From positions 1 to 43,252 of the forward strand of contig DYLN01000016.1 in the NCBI GenBank assembly GCA_020722085.1: a stretch of DNA of 43,252 nucleotides. Direction: 5' to 3'. Numbering within the stretch: the first letter of the stretch is position 1; the number at the start of each line of letters is the position of its first letter. The notes below the pieces were generated by a model. The model was not told the DNA's origin and ran no database searches. It saw nothing but the letters and a program-made list of their open reading frames with translations. This DNA comes from Melioribacter roseus (GTDB lineage: Bacteria; Bacteroidota; Ignavibacteria; Ignavibacteriales; Melioribacteraceae). Made by a program: the position numbers and the translations under genes. This document shows positions 10,794 through 40,715 of this stretch, in pieces.

Positions 10794-10794
10794 G

Positions 10795-10995: not shown

Positions 10996-11022
10996 AAAAG
11001 GCCTACTCCCAAGAGGGTGACC

Positions 11023-11188: not shown

Positions 11189-11229
11189 CCTCAATTTTTT
11201 TAAAGTGGTTTTGTGATTATTTACTCTAA

Positions 11230-12900: not shown

Positions 12901-13207
12901 ACTAATCCCTATAATTATTGAGAGTAATTAGTAATCTGCACACACATTTATTTACTATCAAATAAACAATTTTCAAAACTAAAATTTCGGCAGCACAAAG
13001 AAAATTATTATTAAAAAAATTTATTTATTTAACAGAAAAGTTTCGATGCATGAATAGACAAAAAATTATTTATGGGCAAACCCCAAAATCATGTCCGCTG
13101 TTTCAATTTGATTCAGTTGACATTTCTTACTTGTGTGAAAAGTATTATAGAATTGTACAACAAAAGCAATTAACAATAAATTTGATTTTTTCACTTTAAT
13201 TTCTCCA
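12901..13207. other. A+T-rich gap between lacI-family gene and symporter gene
   Basis: This is the longest break inside the minus-strand cluster. It contains a possible 42-codon reading frame (13066-13194, described separately) and a candidate -7 box TAGTTTTG on the minus strand (12974-12981), without a well-placed TTG partner. No copy of the 18-bp palindrome found at 40661-40678 is present. No hairpin terminator was seen. Confidence 0.5.
13066..13194 (-). pseudogene. Possible 42-residue signal-peptide-like remnant
   Basis: A GTG-started frame directly after the lacI-family gene, with GGAG (13203-13206, complement) eight bases upstream. It begins (M)KKSNLLLIAFVVQFYNTF, which looks like a Sec signal peptide, then HTSKKCQLNQIETADMILG and stops. 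It could be the surviving 5' end of a deleted exported-protein gene, a tiny real peptide, or chance. Confidence is low. Confidence 0.25.
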
Positions 13208-14269: not shown

Positions 14270-14273
14270 TTTT

Positions 14274-16889: not shown

Positions 16890-16900
16890 TGTTGTATGCT

Positions 16901-19072: not shown

Positions 19073-19116
19073 TTCAGTTTCCCCTGCAGTTTTCGTTTTA
19101 ATTAAACGGCTTTTGT

Positions 19117-21213: not shown

Positions 21214-21243
21214 ATTTTTTTGTTAACAGAGTTATGGTACTTT

Positions 21244-24200: not shown

Positions 24201-24681
24201 AACCCTCATCAATTGCCTGCACATATTTTACCTCTGGCTCTTGTTTTTCCAAACCCAACGGGACTAATAATTTCACTGCATCAAGAGTTAAAAGTAAGCT
24301 GCCTCCGTGCTCAACATAATTTTTCAGGTTTCTTAGAAAATCCGCATCTGTTTCACTGTTTGTTAATGCTGAGGAATCGGGTCGATGATACCATAATACA
24401 TTAAATGTTTTTAAAATCTGTGAATTATTTTTTAGTTGATTGAACGTAACTTTAATAGGGTGCAGATTTTTTTCATTTAAAAGAAAATTATAGGCAGCTT
24501 GTGTTTCTTCAGAATTAATTAAATCCGAAAGGAACCCAACTTTTAGAACGGCATGTGAAGAGTTTATTCTTTTTTTTGAAATATCATAAGAAGATTGTTC
24601 AGCTAAAATTTGATTTTCGACAAAAAGTAAAGTAAGCAAGTATACAATTATTAAACTATGTAAACGAAATATTGCTTTCAT
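21244..24681 (-). CDS. Exported glycosidase with N-terminal amidotransferase-like domain (1145 aa)
   Basis: A large secreted protein. After a signal peptide (about 1-27), residues about 45-275 form a class I glutamine-amidotransferase-like (ThuA/GATase1-like) fold: VLKVGFLSDLINSEETQAAY, NVLWYHRPDSS, LKNYVEHGGSLLLTLDAV and GKGKILSVGTYTFFNPP. A beta-rich linker precedes the six-hairpin catalytic region (about 590-960) with GRPGYAWYFGRDAQW, DAADATPLYIILAGKYLKWSG, STDTDGDHLIENTNVGHGW, TADWGVRIIGEDNPLF and YHYGSIWPLF. It is paralogous to the 871-residue enzyme. There is no T9SS tail. Similar GATase-like domains occur in beta-galactosidases, usually for oligomerisation. Specificity is unknown. Confidence 0.78.
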   Translation of the reverse strand: MKAIFRLHSLIIVYLLTLLFVENQILAEQSSYDISKKRINSSHAVLKVGFLSDLINSEETQAAYNFLLNEKNLHPIKVTFNQLKNNSQILKTFNVLWYHRPDSSALTNSETDADFLRNLKNYVEHGGSLLLTLDAVKLLVPLGLEKQEPEVKYVQAIDEGYGRKLGLHSFRSHPVFEGLNGGAYIWAPLSDGKVRQLGYFGNSVPEGKAVAVDWAYITLKEDSKLMLEHKLGKGKILSVGTYTFFNPPNQNRLQLEAFTKNCLKYLAGSNSRVPARYWKYAPLIVKEFTQTSSSVRIDSARAWIQSNGGLIISSRFASENEWDTGGERILIMGREKGGIEEIWTHPFMALRDYEVGVQFSYRDSIYWLNDQIPQIEVRPESFSRIYKFPRAYITEVITSDVNNPAGVVHYEYKGVYPAKLIITFKSNLRFMWPYSHKALGSLLYAWDAGLNAFVVKNESDEFYSILGASKIPQYKLYGRYDGFEKKDKEFKGIETDKLQVACLLQFELKMNDNLNVTIAGTNEGLSNAVDYYKKTAASANTIYENTAKYYKDLLSNTLTITTPDGNFNTGYKWALVGTDRFFVNTPGIGKSFVAGYSTTAHGWNGNQEVSGRPGYAWYFGRDAQWSGMAVLDYGDFPKVRQVLQTYQKYQDINGKIFHELTTSGVVHYDAADATPLYIILAGKYLKWSGDVDFIKSSWHHIKSAMDFLFSTDTDGDHLIENTNVGHGWVEGGELYGAKTTFYLAGCWSAALGAAKYIAVTLGYSKDAKKYEQEHQIVQQIINNSFWNAETNFFNYGLLQDNTYNTQKTALPSVPIYFEIIDSSKAYKVIDTYAKNNFTADWGVRIIGEDNPLFNPRGYHYGSIWPLFTGWISLAEYKYGNFLQGFTHIMNNLNIYKDFSLGYIEEVLNGEQYLPSGVCSHQCWSETMVLQPAIEGMLGLKADALKNKLFISPRLPANWDFIKVDNVKIGSHSLSFRMTRTPGKTAFFFRHEGIGNLNLEFNPYLPKGAKVTRVLVDGKEIKFEKEEGRQQDCVKLSFEAGKNSQVEIYYSGGICVLPVITEPKVGEFSEGFRILSSEFKGNEYNVRVQGKSGHEEVLKVYLPEQNIESVENGNLTGYENHVYSIRVVFEESSDKYLEKKIKMNLK

Positions 24682-24711
24682 TTATTAACGGATTTTATTT
24701 GCAATATAAAT

Positions 24712-26775
24712 TTATCTCAACAAAACCAACTTTTTTGTCTCGATAAAATTTTTTGTAATTATACGATAAAAATAAACGCCGCTGACAACTTTTTGATCAT
24801 ACGAATTTTTCCCATCCCAAATTACATTATAAATCCCGGGCACCCTTTCTTCATCCAACAAAACCTTAACCATTCTTCCTAAAATATCGTAAATAACAAT
24901 TTTAACTTTTGTTTGAATTGGAATCCGGAAACGAATAGTAGTAGTTGGATTGAACGGGTTAGGATAATTTTGATACAGTTCGTAATTCTTCGGTATTTTT
25001 CGAATATCATTTTCTCCGACACTAACAATTGGTGTATTTTGAGCAAGATCTACGGCAGCATAATAATCAATTGCGTAGTACCACCAATCATTTAAAACAC
25101 CATTTGTAACACCGGAATATCGCGGAAGATGGCTAAACCACCATCTCATATAACCCAACTGCGTGCAGTCCCATTCACTGCAATCAACCTTTCTATATTG
25201 ATTAAGTAAATACGGATACCTTTTCCAATTATCTGCATAAGTTACTACAACTTTAAGATTGCCATAATCGTAATCCGATTGCCCATTTGGCGGGAAGTGA
25301 ATATTACCAACATTAGCTTTTCCCGGAATATCTTTATCAATTCTGGTAAACAACTCCCACATATTTGGGTTAGCTGCTTTATTATCCCAGCGCCCAAATG
25401 CATGCCACATAGCACTTTCAACACGGTGACCAACACTGTGCATAGCTTCGGCAACACCTCGTTCATAGTTCCAGCCCATAATGGATAAGGTTTTCTGTAA
25501 CCCGGGATGAGACAACGGGGGTGCATTCCACCAGAATGCACCAGGTCCAGCTAATATCGACTCGTACATTCCGCTAAAAGGGAAAGCATAAACCCAGACT
25601 TCATCAATTTCACCATTATTTCTTTTTGTATCGAGATTATAAAAGCTGATCATTCCATTGTAATCGTAATGTATCCTTCTTTGGGTTTCAGCAATATTTT
25701 TCAACTCTGTGTATAAGTGGTAGTTATCCTGGAAATAGTAAGCTACATCACTTATAGTCATATAACTGCTGTCAATCATCGTAAAAATATTTTGATCTTT
25801 GTAGGTTTCAGCTATTTGAAAAATGACTGTACTATCACTCGCCTTTTTAAATTCATTCTGAAGCTGTGATACCATAATATTCGGATCTGTCCAATTCCAC
25901 TTTTCGTGAACTCTTTTGTTCCCAAATTGGGGTATAATAGGATCCTGGATTATCAAAGCAACTTTAACAACCTTGGTTTTAGCTCGCTGAGATGTGAAAT
26001 CGGATAAAACCTGAACATTTGCTCTACCGCTAAGAGCACCATCTTCAGTTGCTGCAGTAATTGTGCAATTACCTATTGATACACCAGTAATATTACCGCT
26101 GCCATCTACAGTTGCTATTGATTCGTCACTGGAGTGATATACTACGGGATAATTCAGATTATAATCCGTGAAATTACCATCTTCGTCTTCAACTTTTAAA
26201 TACGTCTTCAATGTTGTGCCAGGAATTACTTTTGGCGGTGATGGAGTGATAACGAAGTTTGTTAATTTCAAATCTCGTTCTAAAGTTAATTCTCCTATGT
26301 GAATAGTAGTGTCGGTCGGATTTTTAATGGAAAGACGTAAATACGTTATTGTTACAGAATTAAATTCCAACGAATCCCAGAGCAGAGCCGAAAACTGTTT
26401 TCCATTTACATACGAATGATAAGACCCTGTTTTGTTATTTAAATCGGTTAGGCTTCTTGCAGATTCAAGCGAATATTGCCCATCATTTAAAAAGAATACC
26501 TTGACCTTTGAAAAACTAGCAGTGTTCAAAAAATTTAATGTAATTGTTAATGTGTCACTATTGGTAATCCCAGCTTCTGTAAAAGGATTGCCGTCAAAAA
26601 TTTCGTCAATTGAATTCCAATTAATTGCAGGATATGAGGTCCATTCAATTGTACTGTCCTTAAGCCCACTTGCTATATTTATTCTTTGATGAACAACAAT
26701 TTGTGCTTTAGCACTAATGCCGAGCAAAAAGATAACGGCAAAAATTTTATAAATACGTTTCAAATAATGTCCCAT
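24712..26775 (-). CDS. T9SS-secreted protein with Ig-like domain and unrecognised core (687 aa)
   Basis: Signal peptide about 1-24 (VIFLLGISAKAQ). An N-terminal discoidin-like beta domain (about 25-170) is followed by a Big_2 immunoglobulin-like domain (about 172-260; SSDESIATVDGSGNITGVSIG). The core (about 268-590) is not one I recognise: it contains VKVALIIQDPIIPQFG, EVWVYAFPFSGMYES and AMHSVGHRVESAMWHAFG, where HSVGHRVE gives an HxxxHxxE pattern. The final 90 residues are a T9SS sorting domain (YQNYPNPFNPTT ... VYFYRIITKNF ... KKLVLLR), so the protein is exported and probably surface-attached. It may be a hydrolase or a glycan-binding protein. A strong AAAGGAGA lies before the ATG. Confidence 0.75.
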   Translation of the reverse strand: MGHYLKRIYKIFAVIFLLGISAKAQIVVHQRINIASGLKDSTIEWTSYPAINWNSIDEIFDGNPFTEAGITNSDTLTITLNFLNTASFSKVKVFFLNDGQYSLESARSLTDLNNKTGSYHSYVNGKQFSALLWDSLEFNSVTITYLRLSIKNPTDTTIHIGELTLERDLKLTNFVITPSPPKVIPGTTLKTYLKVEDEDGNFTDYNLNYPVVYHSSDESIATVDGSGNITGVSIGNCTITAATEDGALSGRANVQVLSDFTSQRAKTKVVKVALIIQDPIIPQFGNKRVHEKWNWTDPNIMVSQLQNEFKKASDSTVIFQIAETYKDQNIFTMIDSSYMTISDVAYYFQDNYHLYTELKNIAETQRRIHYDYNGMISFYNLDTKRNNGEIDEVWVYAFPFSGMYESILAGPGAFWWNAPPLSHPGLQKTLSIMGWNYERGVAEAMHSVGHRVESAMWHAFGRWDNKAANPNMWELFTRIDKDIPGKANVGNIHFPPNGQSDYDYGNLKVVVTYADNWKRYPYLLNQYRKVDCSEWDCTQLGYMRWWFSHLPRYSGVTNGVLNDWWYYAIDYYAAVDLAQNTPIVSVGENDIRKIPKNYELYQNYPNPFNPTTTIRFRIPIQTKVKIVIYDILGRMVKVLLDEERVPGIYNVIWDGKNSYDQKVVSGVYFYRIITKNFIETKKLVLLR

Positions 26776-26847
26776 TTCAAAAATCTCCTTTGCTTACTGC
26801 GGGGCAGTTCAACTGCTTCTCTAAGCCGCTTCCAACTTTTTAATTTC

Positions 26848-28842
26848 TCACTTCATGTTATTCTCTTTAAAGGAATTAAAAACAAGAGTATTATCTAAAT
26901 CTAAAATTCGGGCATAAAAACCATAACCGCCAAGGTTATTCTCTATTTTTAATTCGAGTTTATTCCAGCCTTTTTTTAAATGAAGCGGAATCTTAAATTG
27001 GTCGGGTTGAGCAATATTTATTTTAAGAAATCTAAAAATCATTTCATCGTTCAAAAAAACTTTACTTCCATCATCGCTGCTAAATAATAAGGGAAGGGTT
27101 TGTTCTTTTGGTGAATAAACAAAAGTTAGGGCATAAGTAACAACAAGTTCATTCGGATCAATTAAGCCGTATAATGAAAAATATCCACTTTTCGGTGTCT
27201 CAACCAATTTCCACCTTATTTGTTGATTGTTTTGTCCATAATAAGTTTTAGTAGTATCAAATTCTTTTTCGGGTAAGAATATTTCATCTAGTCCTAATCT
27301 TTTCCCTGTTGAATCTTGTTTATTCGGGAAAGGTCCTAAAACGTACCATTGAGGAATAAAAGTTCTGTTTGGTTCCAGATTAAACGCATCCAAGCCGATC
27401 AAAAAACCATTTGACCTGGTATTCCGTCCGGTAACAACAAACTCAAGAATAATTTTACTATTTACGGATCTTACTCCCTTCAAAGTAATCTTACCTGCTG
27501 GATATACTTCGGAATTATAGCCGTAAATTTCGCCGATTTTTTCCCCCTCATAAAAAATATCAGCATTGCAATAATTTGGTGCTTTTGTGTAATACACGTC
27601 GACATCATACTCATCGTCTTGGGGAGTTGGAATTGTAATTGAACATTTATTAAAATTTTTTTTCAAATCAATTTGTAGTTGCTTTGAATTACTCCAATCC
27701 GGTCCATAATTATCCATATTCTCAATTGCACTGTTAACATTAATTCCCTCAGCACTTAATGATTCAGCTTCTATTACGCCTTCCGGCACAGTTACTCTTA
27801 AAGGTATTCGTAATGAAGGTTTCAACAAAGGGGGGAATTTCCTGTGAGGTTCCTTTTGATACCAGTAGGCTGTGCTGCTATAATCAGCGATTTCAGAATT
27901 TTCTGCACCGTGTTCGATAGTGAACTTTAACGACTTGGCAAACGGAATTTGGTCTCCGACCATAAATCTATAGGCTGCAATTCTGGCAGCCGAATCATCT
28001 TTAATAATAAGTCCATGATAAGGAGCAAAAAATTCTCCATGGTTAAAATACCAACCACTTGTAAAGAAGTCCTCGGTGCCTGTGCCATTTAAAGATGGTT
28101 TTTCTTCACCATCAACATAAACCATTTCATCTCCTTCAAGATACCACAATTGTCCATTGTAACTTTGCATACTCATATTAACACCAACAAATTGACCTTC
28201 CCCTTCGGCGTCAAGTACTAAATAATTTTCTTTACTTTTTGTTCTCAAATCTCTATGCCACCAGGCATGAAAATAAGCAACGTCATCTGCGAGACGACTC
28301 GAAAGTTTTTGATACTGTATTTGGTAATAAAAAGCATATACCTCCAGGTTTGTTTGATTAACTATTTCGATCTTTGCCGATTTTTGAAACGGCATCGGGA
28401 AATAACAATAATAACCGCCACTTGTCATGCCGGTAAACGATGAAACGTATTGTTGATATTTAAAGCCGGTACCAAAAAAATCACCTATGGGCGCTTCGAC
28501 TGAGGGTTCTTTTTCATCATCCCAATACATTTTTATTAATATTTTTCTTAAGAAATAAGGGTCACGCGAATCTATGGTTACCCAAATTCTGGTAATAATC
28601 CCGGGTCCTTTAATATATGCTATGGTAGCAGTTTCTCCTTTTTTTATAGAAATTCGATCGTTATTACCCCCTGTTGTATCATGGCTGGAAATTTCTATCA
28701 GCTTGCTGTTCTTTAAGAATGGTAAAGCTGCAGGTGATAAAAGATTTTCTATTTGAGATTGTGCCTTAGAAAGCATATTTAATAAAAACATTGGAAAAAT
28801 TATTATTGCTAGTTTATTGATTAAGATTTTTTTAGAGATCAT
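26848..28842 (-). CDS. GH172 (DUF2961) family glycoside hydrolase
   Basis: A 664-residue exported enzyme with signal peptide about 1-27. The DUF2961/GH172 core (about 35-350) has DDEKEPSVEAPIGDFFGTGF, SGGYYCYFPMPF, LEGDEMVYVDGEEKPS and GTGTEDFFTSGWYF. E239 and E257 in the last two motifs correspond to the conserved acidic region that holds the catalytic pair in the family. The C-terminal third contains a beta-sandwich (about 355-490) and a PA14-like or lectin-like domain (about 495-655). Known GH172 members act on alpha-D-fructofuranosides or D-arabinofuranosides, so a furanose-containing glycan is a reasonable but unproved substrate. No T9SS tail; probably periplasmic. Confidence 0.88.
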   Translation of the reverse strand: MISKKILINKLAIIIFPMFLLNMLSKAQSQIENLLSPAALPFLKNSKLIEISSHDTTGGNNDRISIKKGETATIAYIKGPGIITRIWVTIDSRDPYFLRKILIKMYWDDEKEPSVEAPIGDFFGTGFKYQQYVSSFTGMTSGGYYCYFPMPFQKSAKIEIVNQTNLEVYAFYYQIQYQKLSSRLADDVAYFHAWWHRDLRTKSKENYLVLDAEGEGQFVGVNMSMQSYNGQLWYLEGDEMVYVDGEEKPSLNGTGTEDFFTSGWYFNHGEFFAPYHGLIIKDDSAARIAAYRFMVGDQIPFAKSLKFTIEHGAENSEIADYSSTAYWYQKEPHRKFPPLLKPSLRIPLRVTVPEGVIEAESLSAEGINVNSAIENMDNYGPDWSNSKQLQIDLKKNFNKCSITIPTPQDDEYDVDVYYTKAPNYCNADIFYEGEKIGEIYGYNSEVYPAGKITLKGVRSVNSKIILEFVVTGRNTRSNGFLIGLDAFNLEPNRTFIPQWYVLGPFPNKQDSTGKRLGLDEIFLPEKEFDTTKTYYGQNNQQIRWKLVETPKSGYFSLYGLIDPNELVVTYALTFVYSPKEQTLPLLFSSDDGSKVFLNDEMIFRFLKINIAQPDQFKIPLHLKKGWNKLELKIENNLGGYGFYARILDLDNTLVFNSFKENNMK

Positions 28843-28871: not shown

Positions 28872-29795
28872 TTATTCGAAGCTGATTCCAATTCCTATTC
28901 TATGTGCAGCGCCAAGAAGTCCAAAACTGCTATAAGAATAATCGACCCTAGTATTCACCTTTGATATATTAAACTTTACCCCGCCGCCAAAGGAAAAAGT
29001 TGCAACATCGTAATTCAGTTTATAACCGCCCCTGGCAAAAAATTCATCTAAGAAATTCCATTCCAAGCCAAATTGCGATAAAGGTTTACCATCATTAGGT
29101 TTCAAAGCAGAAAAACTAAGAATAACTTTTTGGCTTTCATTTTCAATTGCATTGATTGAGGCACCAAAGGTAAATGCAGTAGGAAGTGGATAGGATTCAT
29201 TCACAAATTTCACATTTGAACCGAAGTGAGAGATTGCCATAGCAAACTTAAAACCACGAAAATCGGAGTTATACATCGTAGCAATATCAACCGAAACTGC
29301 GTCTGCTTTAAAATCCTTATACAAAGCAAGGTTGATATAACTAACTGTTACGCCAATTGTAACACGGTCGGTAAAAAATCTTGCATAGCTAAATCCAAAT
29401 CGATAGTTGCCAGCGTAAAAAGTTTCTCCTGTTCCATCTGGCTGAAGTGGTGTTCTCACCTTCATTTCATCGGTATACAGTGCGGTTACAGATAATCCTA
29501 TTGTTCCAAGTTCATCAAATGAATGTGCAGCAGCTACAAAGTCGTGATTTATACCAGCAAACCAAAAATTATGGTTAAAAACAATGTCGGTTCCTTTTAT
29601 CCAGGGTAATTCTGCTGCATTGTAGTAAGTTGCCTCAGCTCCTTCGACAACAGAAATATAAGCGTCTCCCATAGCTGTACCTCGGGGGCTTATACCTATT
29701 TTTAAAAACTGAGCATCTGTACTACCTGGTCTTTGATATTGGGCAAGAATAAGAACAGGAATAAGAACAAAAATTATTATAAGACACCGAATCAT
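28872..29795 (-). CDS. PorV/PorQ-family outer membrane beta-barrel protein
   Basis: A 307-residue barrel with signal peptide about 1-18. The start of the mature part (STDAQFLKIGISPRGTAMGDAYISVVEGAEATYYNAAELPW) is the hallmark of the PorV/PorQ family, FadL-related barrels; PorV shuttles T9SS cargo to the attachment complex. It ends in an aromatic-acidic IGIGISFE. It lies 16 bases after the gene for one of the duplicated surface proteins, which suggests that it handles those proteins specifically. A general structural or transport role cannot be excluded. Confidence 0.85.
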   Translation of the reverse strand: MIRCLIIIFVLIPVLILAQYQRPGSTDAQFLKIGISPRGTAMGDAYISVVEGAEATYYNAAELPWIKGTDIVFNHNFWFAGINHDFVAAAHSFDELGTIGLSVTALYTDEMKVRTPLQPDGTGETFYAGNYRFGFSYARFFTDRVTIGVTVSYINLALYKDFKADAVSVDIATMYNSDFRGFKFAMAISHFGSNVKFVNESYPLPTAFTFGASINAIENESQKVILSFSALKPNDGKPLSQFGLEWNFLDEFFARGGYKLNYDVATFSFGGGVKFNISKVNTRVDYSYSSFGLLGAAHRIGIGISFE

Positions 29796-29811
29796 ATGAC
29801 AATTCCAATTT

Positions 29812-31590
29812 TTATTTTATTATTACAAACTTTCCAACTTGTACTTTTCCGTTATTTAGATCTTCAACGGTAAATAAGTATATACCGCTCGATACTGCTT
29901 GCCCCACATAGGAGGTTAAGTTCCAATCTTGATAACCTTTTTCCGCATTATTATGATTAAGAGTATTTATATAATCTCCTGCCAAAGAATAAATTTTGAT
30001 GACACAGTCCGCTGGCAAGTTGATAAACTGAATTCTTCTATCTTGCTCCATCCATGTAGCTCTAGTTGCCTGCGGTTTCTCCCACGGCGGATTATACGAG
30101 TAATAAGCGATATCACCCCTGTAAGGGTTCGGCACAACAGCCACTTCCCCTACTGTCTGCGGCGGCTCTGTGCCAGGCACTACCGTTTTAGAATTAGAGA
30201 AAATACTTGACTCTTGTGAAGGGAAATTAATCGACGTATCTTTTTTTGAAAATGCTGTAACAGAATAATAATATTCAAAATTATTTAACAATCCTTTATC
30301 TATATACTCATGTTGCAAACCTGTCTCATTACCAAATCCATCATTAGCGATATCATACTCACCAAGTAATGTCCAAGGACCAGAAGAACTTATCGTACTT
30401 TTATATAGTCTATACCCTTCAAATGGTTGTGTAATATTGTCGCCTCTATTAGGATCATAATAAGTTTCAGGATTAATATCTCCCTTTTGGGATTCCCAAT
30501 TTAGAATAACTTGATGATTCATTGTTTGTACACGAAGTGGAGGTACTGGAGGTGGTGAAGGCACTTTAAAATTCTTTTGAACAAGCCAATCTAATGTTTT
30601 TAAGTTCGCTGATAGACCATTGATCCCTTGTCCTAATATCTCTCCAACTTGAAAATGTAACGTATCGCCAACGTTTAGATCAAAAGGTCCAAAAGAAATA
30701 ATAAATTGAGAACCAATAGGATCCTGTTGATCCTCCATTATTACGCCGGCTGCCATCTGTTTGTAGCGTAAAACATCTTCTGGGGGTGGTGCACCCATTC
30801 CTTGTCCTGGATACCAATTAAACGTCCATCTTATAGAGTCTAAAGGAACATTTTTAGGTGGGAATATTTTTACACCAATAGGGCTTACAGCATTACCATC
30901 AGCACCGCCAGGATTATCAATACCCACTCCCATATGTTCTTCTTTATAATATACAGAATAATCATCCAGTGCAAAGTCCCAACTAGTTCCACGGTAACCA
31001 ACATTAGCATCCAACCAATAAGCAATGTATACTTTTTTTAGATTTACTTTTCTTGGAATCACATAAAAATTATATACGATAATTTGATCTAATGGCGGTG
31101 AAGCCCAGGCATAGCTTGTTTGTATTACTTCTACATGTAAAGGCTTGTGTGAAGGTATATTTGATAAATTATCATCGCTATATCTGCAGACAAAATCCTG
31201 ATCAGAAACACCTGCATAGTTATGCCAGTAGGGTATATTTACTGTATCATTTTTATTCACCACCCATATAGAATCCCATTGCTCGTCAGTAGGATAAAAT
31301 TCAAAATTTGAATTCCAGCTAGTAGTAACCGAAACAGCAGTGTCACCGGTACCTTCATTAATAGCCCCAATCCAAATTCCGCCTTCTCCTATATGTTCCT
31401 CAAAACTTCCTCTTGGAAATTCACTATAAATAAGCCCGGGATAATCTGTTGCGGCACGCCATAGTGTCCCCATGTTTGTAACCAATTGGCGAATTTGTCC
31501 AACATCATGAACTTTATAATCCAAGTGTGTTCTTTGTGAATAGAGCTGTGATGTAGTATATAAAATCAATATAACCGTTTTCTTTATCAT
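29812..31590 (-). CDS. T9SS-type surface protein with fibronectin-III-like domain (592 aa), paralog B
   Basis: Exported protein with signal peptide about 1-18 (ILYTTSQLYSQ). The N-terminal two thirds, beta-rich, contain EEHIGEGGIWIGAIN, WDSIWVVNKNDTVNIPYW and IEVIQ-like strands, with no recognised fold. From about 345 a fibronectin-III-like domain starts after a proline-rich hinge (KVPSPPPVPPLRV), followed by VVPNPYRGDIAYYSYNPPW and a C-terminal sorting domain (KIYSLAGDYINTL ... GIYLFTVEDL ... VGKFVIIK). It is a tandem duplicate of the 642-residue protein upstream. Likely surface-exposed; glycan binding is plausible because of its position beside the TonB receptor and the PorV-like barrel. 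Confidence 0.8.
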   Translation of the reverse strand: MIKKTVILILYTTSQLYSQRTHLDYKVHDVGQIRQLVTNMGTLWRAATDYPGLIYSEFPRGSFEEHIGEGGIWIGAINEGTGDTAVSVTTSWNSNFEFYPTDEQWDSIWVVNKNDTVNIPYWHNYAGVSDQDFVCRYSDDNLSNIPSHKPLHVEVIQTSYAWASPPLDQIIVYNFYVIPRKVNLKKVYIAYWLDANVGYRGTSWDFALDDYSVYYKEEHMGVGIDNPGGADGNAVSPIGVKIFPPKNVPLDSIRWTFNWYPGQGMGAPPPEDVLRYKQMAAGVIMEDQQDPIGSQFIISFGPFDLNVGDTLHFQVGEILGQGINGLSANLKTLDWLVQKNFKVPSPPPVPPLRVQTMNHQVILNWESQKGDINPETYYDPNRGDNITQPFEGYRLYKSTISSSGPWTLLGEYDIANDGFGNETGLQHEYIDKGLLNNFEYYYSVTAFSKKDTSINFPSQESSIFSNSKTVVPGTEPPQTVGEVAVVPNPYRGDIAYYSYNPPWEKPQATRATWMEQDRRIQFINLPADCVIKIYSLAGDYINTLNHNNAEKGYQDWNLTSYVGQAVSSGIYLFTVEDLNNGKVQVGKFVIIK

Positions 31591-31605
31591 AGAAGACTTC
31601 TTTCA

Positions 31606-33450
31606 TTATTTGATAATAACGAATTTCCCAACCTGAATATTTCCTGTTACTCTGTCATGAACGGTAAATAGATACAACCCGCTGGAAACAGCTTGACCCA
31701 CACTCGAAGTTAAATTCCAATCTTCATAACCTTTTTGAATATTGTTATGCTCTAAAGTAGTAATCAAATCACCTGCCAACGTGTAAATTTTTATCTCGCA
31801 GCTTACAGGCAGATTAATAAATTGAATTCTTCTATCCTGCTCCATCCAAAGATGACGGGAACCGGTGGGTTTCTCCCACGGAGGGTTATATGAGTAGTAG
31901 GCTATATCACCTCGATATGGGTTGGGAACAACCGCCACTTTTCCAATATCGTTAGCAGGAGAGGTGCCAGGCACAGCGATTTTAGCATTTGCTGTTAAGC
32001 TAGACTCTTGACCTGGAAAATTTATTGTAATATCTGGTTTAGATAATGAGGTAACTGTATAATAATACTCAACATTGTTCAATAAACCCTGATCAACATA
32101 TTCATATGCCAACCCTGTGTTGGGTCCTACGTTATCATCGGCAATATCATACTCTGCTAATAACGTCCAGGGTCCAGATGAGCTTATTGTGCTTTTATAA
32201 ACTCTATAGCCTTCAAACGGTTTTAGAATTCCATCGGTTCTATTTGGGTCGATAAAATCTTCCGGGTTAACATCATCTGTGCGAGGTTTCCAATTAAGAA
32301 TAACTTTTCTATCTTCTGTTTTTACACGTAAAGGGGGCGAAGGTGGAGGGGAAGGAATTTTAAAATTTCTTTCTACAAGCCATTGAACAAATTTTGCATT
32401 ACTTTCCAAACCATCTTTTCCTTTACCACAAATGAAAGCAATTGTAAAATGAAGTGTATCCCCAATATTCATTTTATAAGGTCCAACAGAAACAAACCCT
32501 TTGGTACCATCCCCGGTGCTAATTTGATCCTCCATGATTGTTCCCGAAGAAATTTGACTATATCTTTGATTATCTAAGCTTGGTAGCCCTTGCTGCCTGC
32601 CATTATACCAAGTAAAAGTTGTCTTTAAACTGTCTTCGATGTTATTACTCGGCGGAAATATTTTATTTCCAATTGGGCTAACAGCTTGTCCGTCTACCCC
32701 ACCTGGCAAGTCAAGACAAACCTGCATCATTTCATTTTTCTGAAAAAATGTAATATCATCTAACGCATAGTCAGAATATATATTGTTGCCTACATTCCCG
32801 TTCATCCAGCTAGTAAGATAAACATGCTGCAAATTGTATTTTTTAGATATAATAAAGTATTCGACCACTACAAAATCACTTAATGGTTCTGAAGCCCATG
32901 CATGACTAATTTGAATTACTTCTATACCTAGCGGATGATGATTCGAAACTTTCAAACTCACTGGACCATAATCAGTATACCTGCATACAAAATCCTCATC
33001 GGCTTTACCTATGTAATTATTCCAGTAGGGTATATCCACAGTATCATTCTTATGCACTACCCATATTGTATCCCAGATCGCATCGGATGGAAAAAATTCC
33101 TTTGGAGAGCCTTCCCCTTCGGCAACAGAAACGTAATTCACAGAATCGAGGGTTGCACCGACCCATAAACCTGCATCCGCTATATGTTCTTCCGAACTAT
33201 TGGGAGGATATTCACAATTAATTAAACCCGGGTAATTAAACAAGCCATCGCCGACCGCATTAAACTCACCAGTATTTGTCTCCACAAGCCTTATCTTTCC
33301 AATGTTATGTATCTTCCAGCTAAGAGTTACATTTTGTGAAAACATATCCTTAGAAAATAAGATAACAATTATGACCACAAGGACAGCATTCCCTGTTAAA
33401 TTTATATTGCAAATAAAGTTTAGTAGTCTTTTAGTTATGCTTTCTCTCAT
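31606..33450 (-). CDS. T9SS-type surface protein with fibronectin-III-like domain (614 aa), paralog A
   Basis: Tandem paralog of the 592-residue protein, alike throughout and nearly identical in short stretches (YKSTISSSGPWTLL, NPYRGDIAYYSYNPPWEKP, MEQDRRIQFINLP). I start it at the ATG at 33450, which overlaps the TonB receptor stop codon in TGATG. The frame stays open 28 codons further upstream, but that lies inside the receptor gene. This gives an N-terminus MRESITKRLLNFIC followed by a long hydrophobic segment ending FSKDMFSQ, a plausible signal peptide. Domain order is unknown beta-rich region, fibronectin-III-like domain, then sorting domain ending VGKFVIIK. Coupled translation suggests one-to-one production with the receptor. 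Confidence 0.8.
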   Translation of the reverse strand: MRESITKRLLNFICNINLTGNAVLVVIIVILFSKDMFSQNVTLSWKIHNIGKIRLVETNTGEFNAVGDGLFNYPGLINCEYPPNSSEEHIADAGLWVGATLDSVNYVSVAEGEGSPKEFFPSDAIWDTIWVVHKNDTVDIPYWNNYIGKADEDFVCRYTDYGPVSLKVSNHHPLGIEVIQISHAWASEPLSDFVVVEYFIISKKYNLQHVYLTSWMNGNVGNNIYSDYALDDITFFQKNEMMQVCLDLPGGVDGQAVSPIGNKIFPPSNNIEDSLKTTFTWYNGRQQGLPSLDNQRYSQISSGTIMEDQISTGDGTKGFVSVGPYKMNIGDTLHFTIAFICGKGKDGLESNAKFVQWLVERNFKIPSPPPSPPLRVKTEDRKVILNWKPRTDDVNPEDFIDPNRTDGILKPFEGYRVYKSTISSSGPWTLLAEYDIADDNVGPNTGLAYEYVDQGLLNNVEYYYTVTSLSKPDITINFPGQESSLTANAKIAVPGTSPANDIGKVAVVPNPYRGDIAYYSYNPPWEKPTGSRHLWMEQDRRIQFINLPVSCEIKIYTLAGDLITTLEHNNIQKGYEDWNLTSSVGQAVSSGLYLFTVHDRVTGNIQVGKFVIIK

Positions 33451-36224
33451 CACCAATCCACTCTTATTCCCAGTCGCACATATCTGCCGGTTGAAAATTG
33501 TCTTGGGTCCATAAGTCTGTACATCGTATACCAATCGTAATAGACCTTCGTACCCGGTTGAATATCTCCATACTTATAAGGCTTACCAGTCCAGTTATTA
33601 AATCCGTAAGCAATCTGAACATTTTTCTGGTCAAACAAGTTAAACACCTCTAGTTCGAAGCCTAAAGTTATTCCGCCGATTAGCTCAAAGCTTTTTATGA
33701 ACCTAATATCAGTTTGGGTAGTTATTGGACCTGTTGCAGAGTTTGCCAACTTTTGCGCATCGGCTTGGCTAAAAGTGCCAGGTGTATAAGGCTGTCCGGA
33801 AGAAAAATTAGAAAGTACTGTCAACGACCAATCATCCGGTAATTGTATTCCAAATAATTTCATAGGTCGTTCTTTAGGAGAGCTGATCGTTCCTTGAAAA
33901 ACTATTTGATGTCTAACATCCCAGTCAAGTCTGTTTTCGCGTATTGGATTAGGGAAATCAGTTAATGAACGGATATAGTCTGCAAATGCAGAAGAAGAAT
34001 AACCATTTGCCCATTGTACTGTATAGGTGAGTTTTCCGGAAATAAAATTCGAGTAAAGTTTATTTAAGGTAAATTCTAGTCCTCGTGCTCTAGAATATCC
34101 AATATTGTCATACAAATCGACTGGAATCCCCATAGCAGCTCTAAGATGAGTTGTGCCAACTTGTTTTGATATATCCTTTGCATAGCTTTTAATATCCAAT
34201 CCCCAATTTTCACCAATCTGATATGTTAACCCAAATTCGTATTGAATCGTTTGTTCAAAGTTCAATTTTGGATTACCTGTGAACGAGCCGCTATAAGGGT
34301 CGCGGTAGTAAAATTGTAATTCGGGCAGTTGGGTAAAATGTCCATATGAAAAATAAGTAACCATTTTTTCTGATATCGGAAATGAAATTCCAAATCTCGG
34401 ACTAAACTGATATTTGAACAGATTCCAATCAGCTTTGAAGCCGGTAGCATCTTCCCATTGTTGTTTCCAGCCGGGGTCATTAACAGTCTTTCCAAGATAA
34501 AACCAATCCCAGCGAATTCCGGCATTTATTATTAAGAATTCTTTTTCAAACTTATCTTGAACATAAATACTTCCTATCCACGGATAGGTATGAAACACCC
34601 ACCGATATTGCCCAAACTCAGGGTACGGTCCTGGAGGAGGTGATACTTTAGGTCCATTATTATACAGATATTCACCATAATTCGACAGCTTTGTTCCACC
34701 ATCTTCAATATCAACATAACTTAAATCGTTGTACTTTACCGTAGCACCAATTTTAACAAGATGTTCAGAAAAAACTTGAGATGTTAAATCAGTGATAAAA
34801 GAAAAGGTAGAAGTGTTATCGTCTCTCCAAATAGCTTGAAAACTATCACCGGCATAAAAACCAGTTAAGGGATCGAAGTAAGGAGCCTTGATTTTAGAGG
34901 AATCTGTCCAGCCATTTGGAGTTTGTTTTATATCCCAATAATCTTCCGGCGTGCGATTATTCAAGTCTTCATGATATTTAACACCCAAATAACCCAATCT
35001 TACATTCATAAAAGTAGATTGAGAAAAAATATGCTTATATTGAATATTTAATTCGTTATTAAATCTGAGATAACCGGGGGTGTTATCAGGGTAATATTTC
35101 CAGAGCCAGTCAAATTGACTCCAATAATTCCACGAACCATTATAACTGATTACTAGTTGAGAATTTTTTGAAATATCCCAATTAATCTTAGTAGTTAATG
35201 TAGCAGTGTTAGTCTGTTTTTCAGTAACATTAATACCAAATAAATTTATCTTATGACGAGTACGATTGTTATTATACGGCGTATTAGTCAAATTGACTGT
35301 GGCATTCAAAAAATAGTAAAGTTGTCCAGGTACATTAATTCCTAATGCTGGCAGTATATTTCGTGTTATTGGTTCAGGACCACCTAAATAGACTGTAGCA
35401 TACTGTGTTTGGTAATCTTCACCTAAAAATCTAAAACTATCGTTTTTATATTCTACACCGCCGATAAACTTGTCGCTGCCGGTTCTTGTAGTAATATTAA
35501 CCACGCCGGACTGGGCTTCACCATATTCAGCATTAAAAGCACCTGTTAATAATTGAACTTGCTGAACTGAATTAACATCAAGATCAAGCACGCTTCTACC
35601 GCCATAAAGGGGATGTGTAACAGGCATCCCGTCAACGAGGAATAAAATCTCACCACCTCTTCCTCCTCTAATATGAATATCTTTAACACTTTGGTCCCTT
35701 ACCTGTAATTGTGTATCACCTAAAGGTACTAGTTGAGGCGCTGTACCGATGACGGTACCTCCCTGTAATTTAAAAATATCAGAGGTGGTTTGTAAACCGG
35801 GTACATTTCTAATATCTTCACGTGTAACGGTTCTTTCTGTATTGGTAACGTCTTTCTGAATTATCTTCGGCTGAGCTGTTACCACAACTGTGGGGGTCTG
35901 AATAGACGCAGGTTCTAGTTGAATATTAATCTCCGAAGTAAGATCCGCTCTAACTAAAACATTTTCTACAGAAATTGTGTGATACCCGACCATAGAAACT
36001 CTTAAAGTATATGTAGCGGGCGGAATGCCAATAATATAATATTTTCCTTCCTCATCGCTGGCAGCGCCCAGAGAGGTACCTACCAAAACAACATTAGCAC
36101 CTATAAGAGCTCCCCCAGTCTCTTTATCTATAATTTTACCTGCTATTTTCCCTGAACCAGATGCAAATATTTGAATGCTCAGCAAAAAAAGTATTAATAA
36201 AGTTTTAATTCCACTCCTTGTCAA
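33450..36224 (-). CDS. TonB-dependent receptor of the carbohydrate locus (924 aa)
   Basis: Outer membrane transporter. Signal peptide about 1-22 (ending IFASGS); carboxypeptidase-D-like domain about 24-105 (GKIAGKIIDKETGGALIGAN ... YTLRVSMVGYHTISV); plug about 120-240 (IHIRGGRGGEILFLVDGMPV, QVQLLTGAFNAEYGEAQSG); then a large barrel ending VRLGIRVDW. The translation start is TTG, supported by AAAGGAGA eight bases upstream; no ATG is close. It stands where SusC would in a polysaccharide locus, but no SusD-family lipoprotein is present; two unrelated lipoproteins precede it instead. It should import glycan fragments, energised by TonB. Confidence 0.92.
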   Translation of the reverse strand: MTRSGIKTLLILFLLSIQIFASGSGKIAGKIIDKETGGALIGANVVLVGTSLGAASDEEGKYYIIGIPPATYTLRVSMVGYHTISVENVLVRADLTSEINIQLEPASIQTPTVVVTAQPKIIQKDVTNTERTVTREDIRNVPGLQTTSDIFKLQGGTVIGTAPQLVPLGDTQLQVRDQSVKDIHIRGGRGGEILFLVDGMPVTHPLYGGRSVLDLDVNSVQQVQLLTGAFNAEYGEAQSGVVNITTRTGSDKFIGGVEYKNDSFRFLGEDYQTQYATVYLGGPEPITRNILPALGINVPGQLYYFLNATVNLTNTPYNNNRTRHKINLFGINVTEKQTNTATLTTKINWDISKNSQLVISYNGSWNYWSQFDWLWKYYPDNTPGYLRFNNELNIQYKHIFSQSTFMNVRLGYLGVKYHEDLNNRTPEDYWDIKQTPNGWTDSSKIKAPYFDPLTGFYAGDSFQAIWRDDNTSTFSFITDLTSQVFSEHLVKIGATVKYNDLSYVDIEDGGTKLSNYGEYLYNNGPKVSPPPGPYPEFGQYRWVFHTYPWIGSIYVQDKFEKEFLIINAGIRWDWFYLGKTVNDPGWKQQWEDATGFKADWNLFKYQFSPRFGISFPISEKMVTYFSYGHFTQLPELQFYYRDPYSGSFTGNPKLNFEQTIQYEFGLTYQIGENWGLDIKSYAKDISKQVGTTHLRAAMGIPVDLYDNIGYSRARGLEFTLNKLYSNFISGKLTYTVQWANGYSSSAFADYIRSLTDFPNPIRENRLDWDVRHQIVFQGTISSPKERPMKLFGIQLPDDWSLTVLSNFSSGQPYTPGTFSQADAQKLANSATGPITTQTDIRFIKSFELIGGITLGFELEVFNLFDQKNVQIAYGFNNWTGKPYKYGDIQPGTKVYYDWYTMYRLMDPRQFSTGRYVRLGIRVDW

Positions 36225-36231
36225 GGTTAAA

Positions 36232-36239
36232 TCTCCTTT
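36232..36239 (-). promoter_or_regulatory. Ribosome binding site deciding the TTG start of the TonB receptor
   Basis: AAAGGAGA on the minus strand sits eight bases before the TTG at 36224. It lies against the stop codon of the preceding lipoprotein gene. Confidence 0.65.
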
Positions 36240-37703
36240 TTACTGCAAGTTTAAGCTGTGAAGTATATCTGTTACCATCTGTTTAGCATCATCTTTTTGA
36301 ATAAAATAAATCGGGAACCCTAGAATAACGGCGTCAAAAACAGTACCATAATACCTTAGGCCAACTGCGCGTCCTCTATATTGAAAATATGGACTATCGT
36401 TTGCATTATCGTAAGAGTAGATAATGTCTGTGAACCCTGCTCTTTGTGTAACAAGATTAATTTGCCCTAACTTGCCATAGTAAGGAAACGCTTCTGCAAG
36501 TTTTGCTGAATCGACACGAATATTCGGATAACCTTTAGCGGCAATTGCTCCGGTAAAATCTGCATCCAAGACAGTTTCATCAACAGAAATAATGTGCAAA
36601 TAATCATGAACAAAAGAGCCTTTTGGAAAAGAAACAGGGAAGTTTTGATTCCATGCAAAAGATTTCAATATTCGCCAGCCGCTCATAATAAACTTGCCAC
36701 CAACATTCAAATAATCCGATAATTCTTGTTGATTTGCTAAGACTGATAATGCATGCGGCTGTGCACTAGGGCGGTCGTCTGCCACCCAGACTACTAATTT
36801 ATATTGCCCTAAGGTATCTTTAGGAGGCATGCCCTTTGATAAATAATTCCACCAATCATTGCCGGGAAACAGATCTGAATAGAAATTTCTAACATCTTGA
36901 CTACTGCTTTGCACACCAGGGGGAAAGTTATTTACATTGGTTTCGTTAATTATTAAAATCTTTTTGTTAAAAGTTGCTTGAAGCAACCTAATTGTAACTG
37001 AATCTCCGACTGGGTCGACAAGATTGGTATTATTCTTAGATGTCACTCTAAGAACATGATTTCCTACCAAAGGTGGCTTAAATAAATTGGGTGTAATATA
37101 AACAGAAGTATCTTGTGACCAATTCCAAACACCGTCGTCAACCGACCATGCATACGATACTACCTTTCCACCCTCTTCAGCATCTTCGGCAGTAAATGTT
37201 AGCTGGATTCCCTGCCACCAATCTGTTGTTTGATTTACAGCAAAAAAAATTTGCTTATTGGTTGGAGAAATAATTTTTGTCGTGGGCGGGCTGGCTTTTC
37301 GGGTAAAGAAAATTTTTGTCGCAGGCGTGGGATCTGGCGTACCATTATTATCCACTGCTCTTACTTCAAAAAACTGCTTGTTCAATATATCATCAGAAAC
37401 AAACGCAATGGTCTGACTCGTCTCTTTTGTATCTCTCCATGGTTGAATAACAGAATCACCCATAACAATATGATAGGTAGTATATCTATATTGGTAATTG
37501 GTTACATATCCATCATTGTCGTTTCCATCCCAATGTAAAGTAGCAAGGGCAAACAAAGTATCCCCTTCTTTTGGAATATTTGCAATAATAGTATTTGGCG
37601 GCTCATTTGGATTTGGCGGGGATGTTGGTCTTTCACATGAATTGCATATAAGAAATAATACTGTTAACGATATAAAAGAAAAAATAATAGACAAAATTTT
37701 CAT
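36240..37703 (-). CDS. Lipoprotein with amidotransferase-like C-terminal domain (487 aa)
   Basis: Lipoprotein signal with Cys23 (LICNSCERP; C20 is a less likely site). Residues about 35-240 contain two Ig/fibronectin-like modules (GDTLFALATLHWDGNDNDGY, FTAEDAEEGGKVVSYAWSVDDG). The C-terminal half (about 245-487) resembles a class I glutamine-amidotransferase-like fold: KKILIINETN, QYKLVVWVADD, ELSDYLNVGGKFIMSGWR and a final strand-helix DAVILGFPIYFIQKDDAKQMV. No catalytic Cys-His-Glu triad is evident, so it is probably a binding or scaffolding protein. It sits between another lipoprotein (28 bases away) and the TonB receptor (15 bases), the position normally held by SusD. Confidence 0.72.
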   Translation of the reverse strand: MKILSIIFSFISLTVLFLICNSCERPTSPPNPNEPPNTIIANIPKEGDTLFALATLHWDGNDNDGYVTNYQYRYTTYHIVMGDSVIQPWRDTKETSQTIAFVSDDILNKQFFEVRAVDNNGTPDPTPATKIFFTRKASPPTTKIISPTNKQIFFAVNQTTDWWQGIQLTFTAEDAEEGGKVVSYAWSVDDGVWNWSQDTSVYITPNLFKPPLVGNHVLRVTSKNNTNLVDPVGDSVTIRLLQATFNKKILIINETNVNNFPPGVQSSSQDVRNFYSDLFPGNDWWNYLSKGMPPKDTLGQYKLVVWVADDRPSAQPHALSVLANQQELSDYLNVGGKFIMSGWRILKSFAWNQNFPVSFPKGSFVHDYLHIISVDETVLDADFTGAIAAKGYPNIRVDSAKLAEAFPYYGKLGQINLVTQRAGFTDIIYSYDNANDSPYFQYRGRAVGLRYYGTVFDAVILGFPIYFIQKDDAKQMVTDILHSLNLQ

Positions 37704-37731
37704 CTCATAATTTCCTTTTGTCTGTTGACCC

Positions 37732-38340
37732 TTAAAAGTATTTTACGTCAACAATTTCGAGTTTACGATCAAAATAATATGTATCTCTATAACGCTGCAC
37801 CGATTTAAAAGGGCTTAATTGAACTTTAATTTCTGTTGTCGCATTCTCAGAAATTTTAAAGCCAACAGGTAAAGTAACTAACTTCGGAACATCTGGAGGT
37901 AACTCAACTGGTATATCAAATATATTTATGTGTAATAAATCGGCAGTCATGCCAAATACAATTGAAGTATAGTTCCCCGGTGGTACGTATGATTCAAAAA
38001 TAGTATGCGGTTTATAGGTATTGTTCTCTCTTTCAATTACATTAATTATTTTGTCTTCTTGCCTATAACTTTCTATAGTAGGATACAAAATGGCAAATAT
38101 TGAATCCGAATAAGCCTTCCCTTGAAAAACAGTGGTTTTAAAATAGTCACCGTTAGAAACAGTAATTGTATCTTTAATAATTATTATTGAAGTATCAGTT
38201 GGATCAGATTGTAAAATTATTTTTAATACACCGGGTTTTGGTGAACTTTGAACGCCTGTATCACAACTTGTGATAAAGACAATTGTTATCAGGATTAAGG
38301 CAAATCCGTAAAGAATATTCTTATAATATTTATTTGTCAT
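37732..38340 (-). CDS. Lipoprotein of unknown function (202 aa)
   Basis: Begins MTNKYYKN, then a hydrophobic stretch GFALILITIVFITSC with Cys26 as the lipidation site. The mature part is beta-rich (GVLKIILQSDPTDTSIIIIK, YVPPGNYTSIVFGMTADLL), resembling a small transthyretin/prealbumin-like or Ig fold, but no family was recognised. It is followed after 28 bases by the second lipoprotein. It could be an accessory subunit of the receptor complex at the outer membrane. Confidence 0.72.
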   Translation of the reverse strand: MTNKYYKNILYGFALILITIVFITSCDTGVQSSPKPGVLKIILQSDPTDTSIIIIKDTITVSNGDYFKTTVFQGKAYSDSIFAILYPTIESYRQEDKIINVIERENNTYKPHTIFESYVPPGNYTSIVFGMTADLLHINIFDIPVELPPDVPKLVTLPVGFKISENATTEIKVQLSPFKSVQRYRDTYYFDRKLEIVDVKYF

Positions 38341-38378
38341 CTTCCTAAGTATTAACTCTGTTAAATAATAGTATATAG

Positions 38379-38408
38379 GGGGAATATATATATTTCAATA
38401 CATTCCCC
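38379..38408 (-). other. Intercistronic hairpin after the first gene of the cluster
   Basis: GGGGAAT (38379-38385) pairs with ATTCCCC (38402-38408), a perfect seven-base stem with a 16-base A+T-rich loop. It lies just downstream of the 700-residue protein gene. No T-run follows, so it is more likely an RNA-stabilising or partial attenuating structure than a full terminator. Confidence 0.45.
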
Positions 38409-38428
38409 TTTCTGAATAAGCGCACACC

Positions 38429-40531
38429 TTAACGCAACAGAACCATTTTCTTCGTCTGAACAAAATCCTCTGCGACCAATCTATACATATATACACCACT
38501 AGCTACGCGCTCGCCTTTGTTATTTGTTCCATCCCACGATACTGTGTATTTTCCCGCTTGCGTAAAATCATTAATCAGCGTTTTCACATTTCTGCCTAAT
38601 ATATCATAAACAGTTAATGATATTTTCTGCGCTTTTGGAATTACAAATTTAATTATTGTTGTTGGGTTAAAAGGATTAGGATAATTTTGAGATAATTCAT
38701 AGTACGCCGGTACTAATGTGTTATCTCGATTAACACCTGTAACTGAATTTTTGGCTTGCCCATTATTATAGATTCGTACATCGTCAATTAATCCTCTAAA
38801 ACCTCGCCTACCATTTAAGTTGCTGCCGTTGCCAATCCTTAATGGAGCATTTGCTATCGCTGGTGGGTTAACAGCAACTGAGGAATCATATCCAACACTT
38901 AACATTGTATTTGTGGAATCAAACAGCATAAAGACAGCGGCGGTATCCGTTCTTTTGTAAACGACACGGTACCAACTATGCAATTTTATTGAATCAGGCA
39001 ATGTAATTTCACTGTAATCCTTTGTTCTATTAGGCGCATTGGGATCAACATAATAACGAGCTCTAATTCTAGCATTAGGTTGAAATCTTATTTCATAATT
39101 ATTCTGATACCAGTTTCCTCTCACAATTGGTCTATTTAATAGGCGTGTATATTCCAAAGTGGAATCTGCATTAAACCAAAATGAAACGTAAAAATCCTTC
39201 ATGGTAAGAAAAGGTGAAGGTACTTCTAGAAAAGCAGAATCGGCATCAGATGGCATTAATAATGAATATTTACCTTCAGCAGCATTAGTAGAATAAACTG
39301 GTGCCCTATTCCCAAAAGTAGTAACTTTATTTACAAGAGGAGAAACATCAACCGGTGTGCCAGAACCATTTTCAAAATTGAGGTGGAGTACCAATATATT
39401 AGGTTTATAAACAACAAAAGAGTAATACGGAAAATCTTGTCCGCCTATGCCTGCTATAGGCTGTTGAGCGGTCAACCCCTGATCATCGGTAGCGGTTATG
39501 TAATAACGAACCTCCGTACCAAAATTTTGTTTGGGAATTAACCCTACATAATGATCTTGAGAAACCATCATAACCATTGGTGTTGATTGCCAAGTATTTC
39601 CTTCATCTACTGAATAGTGAATTTCAGCGCTCTGAATAGAGCCAGTTGATGAAAAAGCCATTATGTCTGCTTCAACAGAATAATTATCTACGCTATCCGG
39701 CTGATTAGGAACTTGCGTCAGATTAGTTATTATTGGCGGAACAGCAAAGTTTCTTACAATATTGCTAATCCGAATTTCATCGACAAATCCATCCAACCAT
39801 CCATCCGTGCTACCTTGTCCGGCAAAGCCGATTGTTACCGGCTGCTTTGTTTGAATTGGTGGAACATCTAAGACAGGGTCATAACTTGCCGTATTGAACG
39901 AAATTAGCTGCCTTTTATCATCATGAACCATTTGAATTAGAATGTGACGGGTAGTATCGCGAATAAATGTTAAATGAAACCATTTACCTGGCATAAGTGT
40001 ATTGTTAGGAGAGTTAACCTGTGGCCATCTATCTTGCCCTTCTACATTATAACCGGTAGAGAAAAATCTATTACTCCCCCAGTTCTCAACAAAATAATTG
40101 GGGCGCCAGAAAACTTCATCGCCAGCCTTAATGACCAACCGCGGGACCCATCTCCAGTCAGATGAGCTTGTCCCATAAGTAAAAACATTCATCCAACCTT
40201 CTATTGTCCAGTTACCTTTTAGATTCAAAGCAGCAGTGTCAGCTACACTCACATAGGAGGAATCACTAATAGCATCATTATTTATACGCAAGCATTGACC
40301 AAGACCTAAGGCGGCATTGGATAGATATGTAAGTTTACCATACCCAACTCCATCTGCTGAAAATTGTGACTCATTTTGGAGATTGCCGTCAAAGTGCATT
40401 AACAGTACAGTGTTGCTATCTGGCGTGTAAGGACCTCCAATTTGTTCTTGGGCAAAAGAGGAATTACTGATACCCAGTAAAAAAAATATAACAAGAGAAA
40501 AAGGGAATGTTCTGTGTAGTATTTCTGTCAT
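38429..40531 (-). CDS. T9SS-secreted LamG-domain protein (700 aa)
   Basis: First gene of the cluster. Signal peptide about 1-28 (LGISNSSFAQE). Two concanavalin-like LamG domains are visible: about 38-265 (TVLLMHFDGNLQNESQFSADG ... GWLDGFVDEIRISNIVRNF) and about 380-600 (ILVLHLNFENGSGTPVD ... FRGLIDDVRIYNNGQAK), separated by a fibronectin-like segment. The last 90 residues are a T9SS sorting domain (LSQNYPNPFNPTTIIKFVIP, DILGRNVKTL, GVYMYRLVAEDFVQTKKMVLLR). It is probably a surface glycan-binding protein. An ideal AGGAGG (complement of 40538-40543) precedes the ATG, suggesting high expression. Confidence 0.85.
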   Translation of the reverse strand: MTEILHRTFPFSLVIFFLLGISNSSFAQEQIGGPYTPDSNTVLLMHFDGNLQNESQFSADGVGYGKLTYLSNAALGLGQCLRINNDAISDSSYVSVADTAALNLKGNWTIEGWMNVFTYGTSSSDWRWVPRLVIKAGDEVFWRPNYFVENWGSNRFFSTGYNVEGQDRWPQVNSPNNTLMPGKWFHLTFIRDTTRHILIQMVHDDKRQLISFNTASYDPVLDVPPIQTKQPVTIGFAGQGSTDGWLDGFVDEIRISNIVRNFAVPPIITNLTQVPNQPDSVDNYSVEADIMAFSSTGSIQSAEIHYSVDEGNTWQSTPMVMMVSQDHYVGLIPKQNFGTEVRYYITATDDQGLTAQQPIAGIGGQDFPYYSFVVYKPNILVLHLNFENGSGTPVDVSPLVNKVTTFGNRAPVYSTNAAEGKYSLLMPSDADSAFLEVPSPFLTMKDFYVSFWFNADSTLEYTRLLNRPIVRGNWYQNNYEIRFQPNARIRARYYVDPNAPNRTKDYSEITLPDSIKLHSWYRVVYKRTDTAAVFMLFDSTNTMLSVGYDSSVAVNPPAIANAPLRIGNGSNLNGRRGFRGLIDDVRIYNNGQAKNSVTGVNRDNTLVPAYYELSQNYPNPFNPTTIIKFVIPKAQKISLTVYDILGRNVKTLINDFTQAGKYTVSWDGTNNKGERVASGVYMYRLVAEDFVQTKKMVLLR

Positions 40532-40660: not shown

Positions 40661-40678
40661 AATGTTAGCGCTAACATT
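40661..40678. promoter_or_regulatory. LacI-family operator, perfect 18-bp palindrome
   Basis: AATGTTAGCGCTAACATT is perfectly self-complementary and has the central CG step and form typical of LacI/GalR-family operators. It lies immediately downstream of a promoter-like sequence for the minus-strand cluster, so a bound repressor would block transcription. The LacI-family protein at 13208-14269 is the obvious candidate. I saw no second copy in the window. Confidence 0.85.
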
Positions 40679-40684
40679 CTGAAT

Positions 40685-40715
40685 GCAATTTAACATCTAT
40701 ATTTATTAAAGTCAA
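40685..40715 (-). promoter_or_regulatory. Promoter of the carbohydrate cluster
   Basis: On the minus strand, TTGACT (complement of 40710-40715) is 17 bases from TAAATT (complement of 40687-40692). Read as a Bacteroidetes promoter, TTG and TAAATTGC are 20 bases apart, the same spacing as at the toxin-antitoxin promoter. The operator starts eight bases after the -7/-10 box, covering the probable start site. The leader would be about 150 bases. Confidence 0.6.

Follow-up and report, generated by a model that had tools for sequence, protein, structure and literature searches.

Polysaccharide utilization loci of the Bacteroidetes are typically controlled by SusR or by a hybrid two-component sensor, and the O1 operator of the E. 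coli lac system is centered near +11. Among regulons of the LacI family, autoregulation is the rule (72%), 31% of 1288 regulons consist of a single operon, and 93% contain 20 genes or fewer (PMC4052901). The operators are even palindromes with a central CG and a G at NT-6 (PMC4052901, PMC2978694). In the recognition code of the family, the residues AA-15 and AA-16 set NT-5 and NT-4, Met at AA-16 corresponds to TT at these two positions and Arg at AA-20 to G at NT-6; for Met-16, one set of mutational data lacked the assigned TT and another agreed with it (PMC2978694).

The window, i.e. the whole stretch of 43,252 nt that was analyzed, contains a palindrome that is predicted to be bound, as its operator, by the LacI-family repressor whose gene lies at 13208–14269. 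The site would be located at the promoter of an operon for glycan uptake and breakdown, with negative autoregulation of the repressor. From the sequence, a probability of about 0.9 is assigned to this reading. The site, its uniqueness, its overlap with the promoter, its conservation and its ortholog-specific pairing with the regulator were computed directly.

Gene cluster and its LacI-family regulator

Fourteen genes, all on the minus strand, extend from 40531 to 13208 and are separated by −85 to 88 bp (29 bp or less among genes 2–7). Beyond lacI follow a 307-bp gap, an SSF symporter gene, a 436-bp gap, galK and galT.

40710–40715, minus strand: −35 hexamer TTGACT
40687–40692, minus strand: −10 hexamer TAAATT
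40661–40678, no strand: LacI-type operator AATGTTAGCGCTAACATT, an 18-bp perfect palindrome with central CG
38429–40531, minus strand: gene 1, LamG-like (concanavalin A-like) protein with T9SS sorting tail
38341–38428, minus strand: gap between genes 1 and 2 with hairpin GGGGAAT..ATTCCCC
28872–38340, minus strand: genes 2–7, for proteins of 202 aa and 487 aa, a TonB-dependent outer-membrane protein, two paralogous ~600-aa proteins and a PorV-family protein
33450–36224, minus strand: the TonB-dependent outer-membrane protein within genes 2–7
14274–28842, minus strand: genes 8–13, for a DUF2961/GH172-like protein, a Big_2/T9SS protein and four (alpha/alpha)6 glycoside-hydrolase-like proteins
13208–14269, minus strand: lacI, LacI/GalR-family regulator (recognition helix SMMTVSRALN), at the end of the packed run
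12901–13207, minus strand: 307-bp gap past lacI, no operator match
8573–12900, minus strand: SSF sodium/solute symporter, galactokinase (galK) and galactose-1-phosphate uridylyltransferase (galT)

The four (alpha/alpha)6 glycosidase-like proteins are of the GDE_C/DUF608 and MGH1/GH63-like types. Solved relatives of the cluster's proteins include the E. coli glucosidase YgjK, trehalase, an archaeal-type debranching enzyme, difructose dianhydride I synthase and exo-alpha-D-arabinofuranosidase.

Downstream of lacI, a second operator before the SSF symporter or galK was not found in the gaps of this genome or of the same-genus genome G001. A gene of 431–433 aa, which is missing at this place in the window, lies between lacI and the SSF symporter in G001, G079 and G087, and is preceded by an operator in the latter two. 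The gap before galK (10794–11229) contains a G+C-rich segment absent from G001; it also has a short stretch that is conserved and may code for a small membrane protein. No Rfam match to a riboswitch or other known RNA was obtained in the window.

The product of lacI belongs to the LacI/GalR family according to PF00356 (51.9 bits, cut-off 27), PF00532 and PF13377. It scored below the cut-offs of all of the NCBIfam equivalogs RbsR, PurR, CcpA and GalR, the best being RbsR with 221 vs 382 bits. The hinge Leu AA-54 (L57) and Arg AA-20 (R23, in the TVSR recognition helix) are both present, and the recognition helix carries Met at AA-16. The genome encodes six LacI-domain proteins in total, and the residues at AA-15/AA-16 of the other five are I/A, I/S, I/A, T/V and Q/V. 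Just upstream of one of these genes (L008; C81, about 1728; I/A) the perfect palindrome ATGTAAACGTTTACAT was found, and the two are predicted to form a second regulator-operator pair.

Predicted operator and promoter

A preliminary description of this DNA had reported a fully palindromic 18-bp site at the head of the cluster, and AATGTTAGCGCTAACATT was found at that position. It is intergenic, lies about 130 bp upstream of the start codon of gene 1 (40531) and is the longest perfect palindrome of the window. By itself, a perfect palindrome of 18 bp is neither rare nor striking: for a G+C content of 36.8%, a hand estimate gives about 0.3 chance occurrences per 43 kb, and matches to AATGTTAGCGCTAACATT at up to 3 mismatches arose in 8 of 100 shuffles. 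Two further perfect palindromes are present in the window, one of 16 bp (AAATTCGTACGAATTT, 4112–4127), which falls within the coding sequence 1310–4531, and one of 14 bp (GTGGAAATTTCCAC, 47–60).

The number of copies in the genome was determined by pattern searches. The 18-bp site is single-copy in the 3.64 Mb, and the only genome-wide match to its 14-bp core at one mismatch or less is the operator itself, so that the proposed scan for further copies returned none. Four matches with 2 mismatches to the core were considered as additional operators and rejected, as all of them are inside coding sequence. The exact 14-mer is present in 4 of 164 genomes of the order. One genome (G130, L122–L128) contains 32 copies of the 14-mer TGTTAGCGCTAACA. 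They are frequently located close to the ends of contigs and paired at a distance of 182 bp, and thus resemble a dispersed repeat rather than a regulon.

The site has the even palindrome, the central CG and the G at NT-6 of LacI-family operators. Its TT at NT-5/NT-4 and its G at NT-6 match the code for Met AA-16 and Arg AA-20 of the cluster's LacI.

The predicted promoter, TTGACT-N17-TAAATT on the minus strand, was called as a match to a consensus that may not suit the sigma factor preferences of this lineage. Its end, the −10 hexamer at 40692–40687, lies 8 nt before the palindrome, in full agreement with the preliminary description. Transcription would start at about 40680, approximately 7 nt past the −10 hexamer, which places the operator at roughly +3 to +20 with its center near +11. 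The spacing (17-nt spacer; 10–11 nt from the −10 region to TGTTA) recurs at six of nine sites in a scripted scan. In G030 and G023 the operator was judged by eye to be nearer to or over the likely −10 region; for these two genomes the scripted scan found no promoter better than those in shuffles.

Since the operator is centered near +11, repression is expected to act by a block of initiation; that the protein represses at all is taken from established LacI biology. In the proposed mechanism, the effector-free repressor dimer would occupy positions +3 to +20, approximately, at the glycan operon promoter and block initiation or promoter escape. A sugar from the target glycan would then bind the regulator and cause release of the operator, upon which the run from LamG via TonB and the glycoside hydrolases to lacI would be transcribed. 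As a guess from galK and galT, the inducer might be galactose or a glycan fragment.

Occurrence of the site in related genomes

In G001 an identical operator is found in the same place, within an identical block of more than 20 bp and 27 kb from lacI. The promoter and the gene order over 27 kb are kept, and the LacI proteins are 85% identical. Only the operator, CTTGACTTT at the −35 hexamer and TG-N-TA-NN-TTGCAT stand out in the intergenic alignment, the rest being diverged; the −10 region reads TG-N-TAAATTGCAT here and TG-N-TATGTTGCAT in G001.

In G079, G087, G030 and G023, sites of the TGTTARCGYTAACA type precede the head of the orthologous LamG-lipo-TonB operon (in G023 as a form with 1 mismatch), and further sites adjoin lacI or nearby operons. 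Of these sites, 3 of 3 in G079, 2 of 3 in G087 and 7 of 8 in G023 are on the contig of lacI. G025 has 1-mismatch sites only.

The half-site was examined with 34 relatives of the regulator, retrieved by protein from another collection. For 29 independent ortholog loci, none of which had been used in defining the motif, all 1024 possible half-sites were counted. TGTTA.CG.TAACA was found at 20 sites in 13 of the 29 loci, with 17 of the 20 sites within 500 bp of lacI; the remaining 16 loci have no exact TGTTA site in the DNA examined. The other 1023 half-sites reached a mean of 0.04, and the runner-up was found twice. At the loci of 22 paralogs with Ser at AA-16, TGTTA was found 0 times and TGCAA is favored instead. 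Met at AA-16 is present in 37 of 37 orthologs, which form a single clade with 100/99 support. An ortholog is also known in Gracilimonas mengyeensis (L100), a relative that can be cultivated. A correlation between NT-2 (A or G) and the hinge residue AA-55 (Ala/Thr with G) is suggestive but not claimed, because the regulator of the window itself pairs Val with G.

The LacI-type identity of the site, which had been proposed from the palindrome, is thus supported by footprinting across orthologs and by the recognition residues (PMC2978694), and its pairing with the LacI of the cluster is strongly supported by the TGTTA counts at ortholog and paralog loci together with the Met-16 code. That the palindrome arose by chance is a negligible possibility and already contradicted. 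The hand estimate of 0.3 would leave room for it, but the site is above chance, since it is the sole genome match at one mismatch or less, is conserved in position in the congener and has variants in distant genomes, and since the recognition code agrees. It is also highly improbable that another LacI-family protein of the genome or a global catabolite regulator binds here while the cluster's LacI acts elsewhere. Five other candidates exist, and the CG-centered plan is common to operators of the family; however, their recognition residues differ, no TGTTA-type site lies near their genes, and the site tracks the orthologs of the cluster's LacI across many genomes. A global regulator would not be expected to have a single-copy site.

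Extent of the regulated unit and comparison with known systems

The operator and lacI are 26.4 kb apart. The preliminary description regarded a single operator for more than 25 kb as unusual, which is overstated: single-operon LacI regulons are common, and 14 genes are within the normal range (PMC4052901), the length of the run being due to long genes. The distance is unremarkable and without mechanistic weight, because the repressor is a diffusible protein. Moreover, lacI stands at the end of a packed run of 14 genes, and in a relative the corresponding stretch measures 43 kb.

In this genome and in G001 the packed run closes with lacI. The arrangement is the same in G079, where it covers about 43 kb and has operators at both ends. 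In G023 and G030, lacI directly precedes the LamG operon and at the same time closes a unit headed by an operator; both genomes have several operators and transcription units. From these arrangements, autoregulation appears to persist while the distance varies with gene order. With lacI last in the run, its own synthesis would be inside the loop. The closed feedback loop described earlier is supported as an inference, because the run on this strand is unbroken and only 4 bp separate lacI from the gene before it; one continuous transcript would be required.

A stable RNA hairpin was found just past the stop codon of gene 1 (LamG/T9SS) in all six genomes considered (own, G001, G079, G087, G030 and G023). 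The hairpins are unrelated in sequence, with z values between −1.5 (own) and −4.7. The amount of RNA may drop at this point; the hairpin is possibly a partial terminator or an element of mRNA stability, and would then fix how strongly gene 1 is expressed relative to the later genes. On this basis the operator might control only the head of the cluster, with transcripts ended or processed at the hairpin or the later genes served by internal promoters, so that neither a 27-kb operon nor a simple closed loop would exist. The multiple units of G023 and G030 point in the same direction, as do promoter-like matches inside the run, which show no excess over shuffles in 8000–24500. Control of the head only is nevertheless rather unlikely, given that all gaps from gene 1 to lacI are 88 bp or less and that the hairpins have no clean U-tract and are not listed as terminators. 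A −35/−10-like match at 38398–38370 was rejected as an internal promoter, being not conserved in G001.

For an operon that does reach lacI, it is tentatively suggested that one operator governs a single transcript of about 27 kb (43 kb in G079) with the repressor as last cistron, and that an ancestral regulon with several operators was reduced in this genus to a single master site. In that case, new repressor would be made only after elongation through the entire transcript, so that re-repression would be slow.

Overall, this is a conventional and well-supported local LacI-family regulon, previously undescribed as far as searched. A full-text literature search for an Ignavibacter LacI regulon returned nothing relevant, and the literature on LacI-controlled Bacteroidetes loci and intercistronic hairpins contained nothing directly usable. 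For glycan degraders among the Ignavibacteriota and related phyla, from which few regulons have been described, the locus offers a concrete predicted regulator-operator pair. It also counts as a success of the LacI recognition code on a case from outside its original sample; this includes the rule linking Met-16 to TT, over which genomic data and one set of mutational data were in dispute.

Like the polysaccharide utilization loci of the Bacteroidetes, the cluster combines a TonB-dependent outer-membrane protein, glycoside hydrolases and a transporter under (here predicted) sugar control. In contrast to those loci, it has a LacI regulator and no SusR or hybrid two-component sensor. It does not qualify as a SusCD-type locus, as TIGR04056 reached 80.6 vs 368 bits and no SusD family was detected in Pfam scans of the cluster. 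The position of the operator near +11 is shared with lac O1, whereas no auxiliary operators as in E. coli lac were found here. Compared to SymL, the half-site TGT-N-AGC differs only at NT-4 (T for G), which is expected because Met replaces Gln at AA-16.

The closest resemblance is to local autoregulated LacI-family sugar regulons, with which the locus shares the even 18-bp palindrome with central CG, the site 130 bp before the start codon, the one target operon and the regulator inside the regulated cluster. It differs from them in that its phylum is apparently outside the seven surveyed, lacI is the last gene and not next to the operator, and the operon owes its length to that of its genes (PMC4052901).
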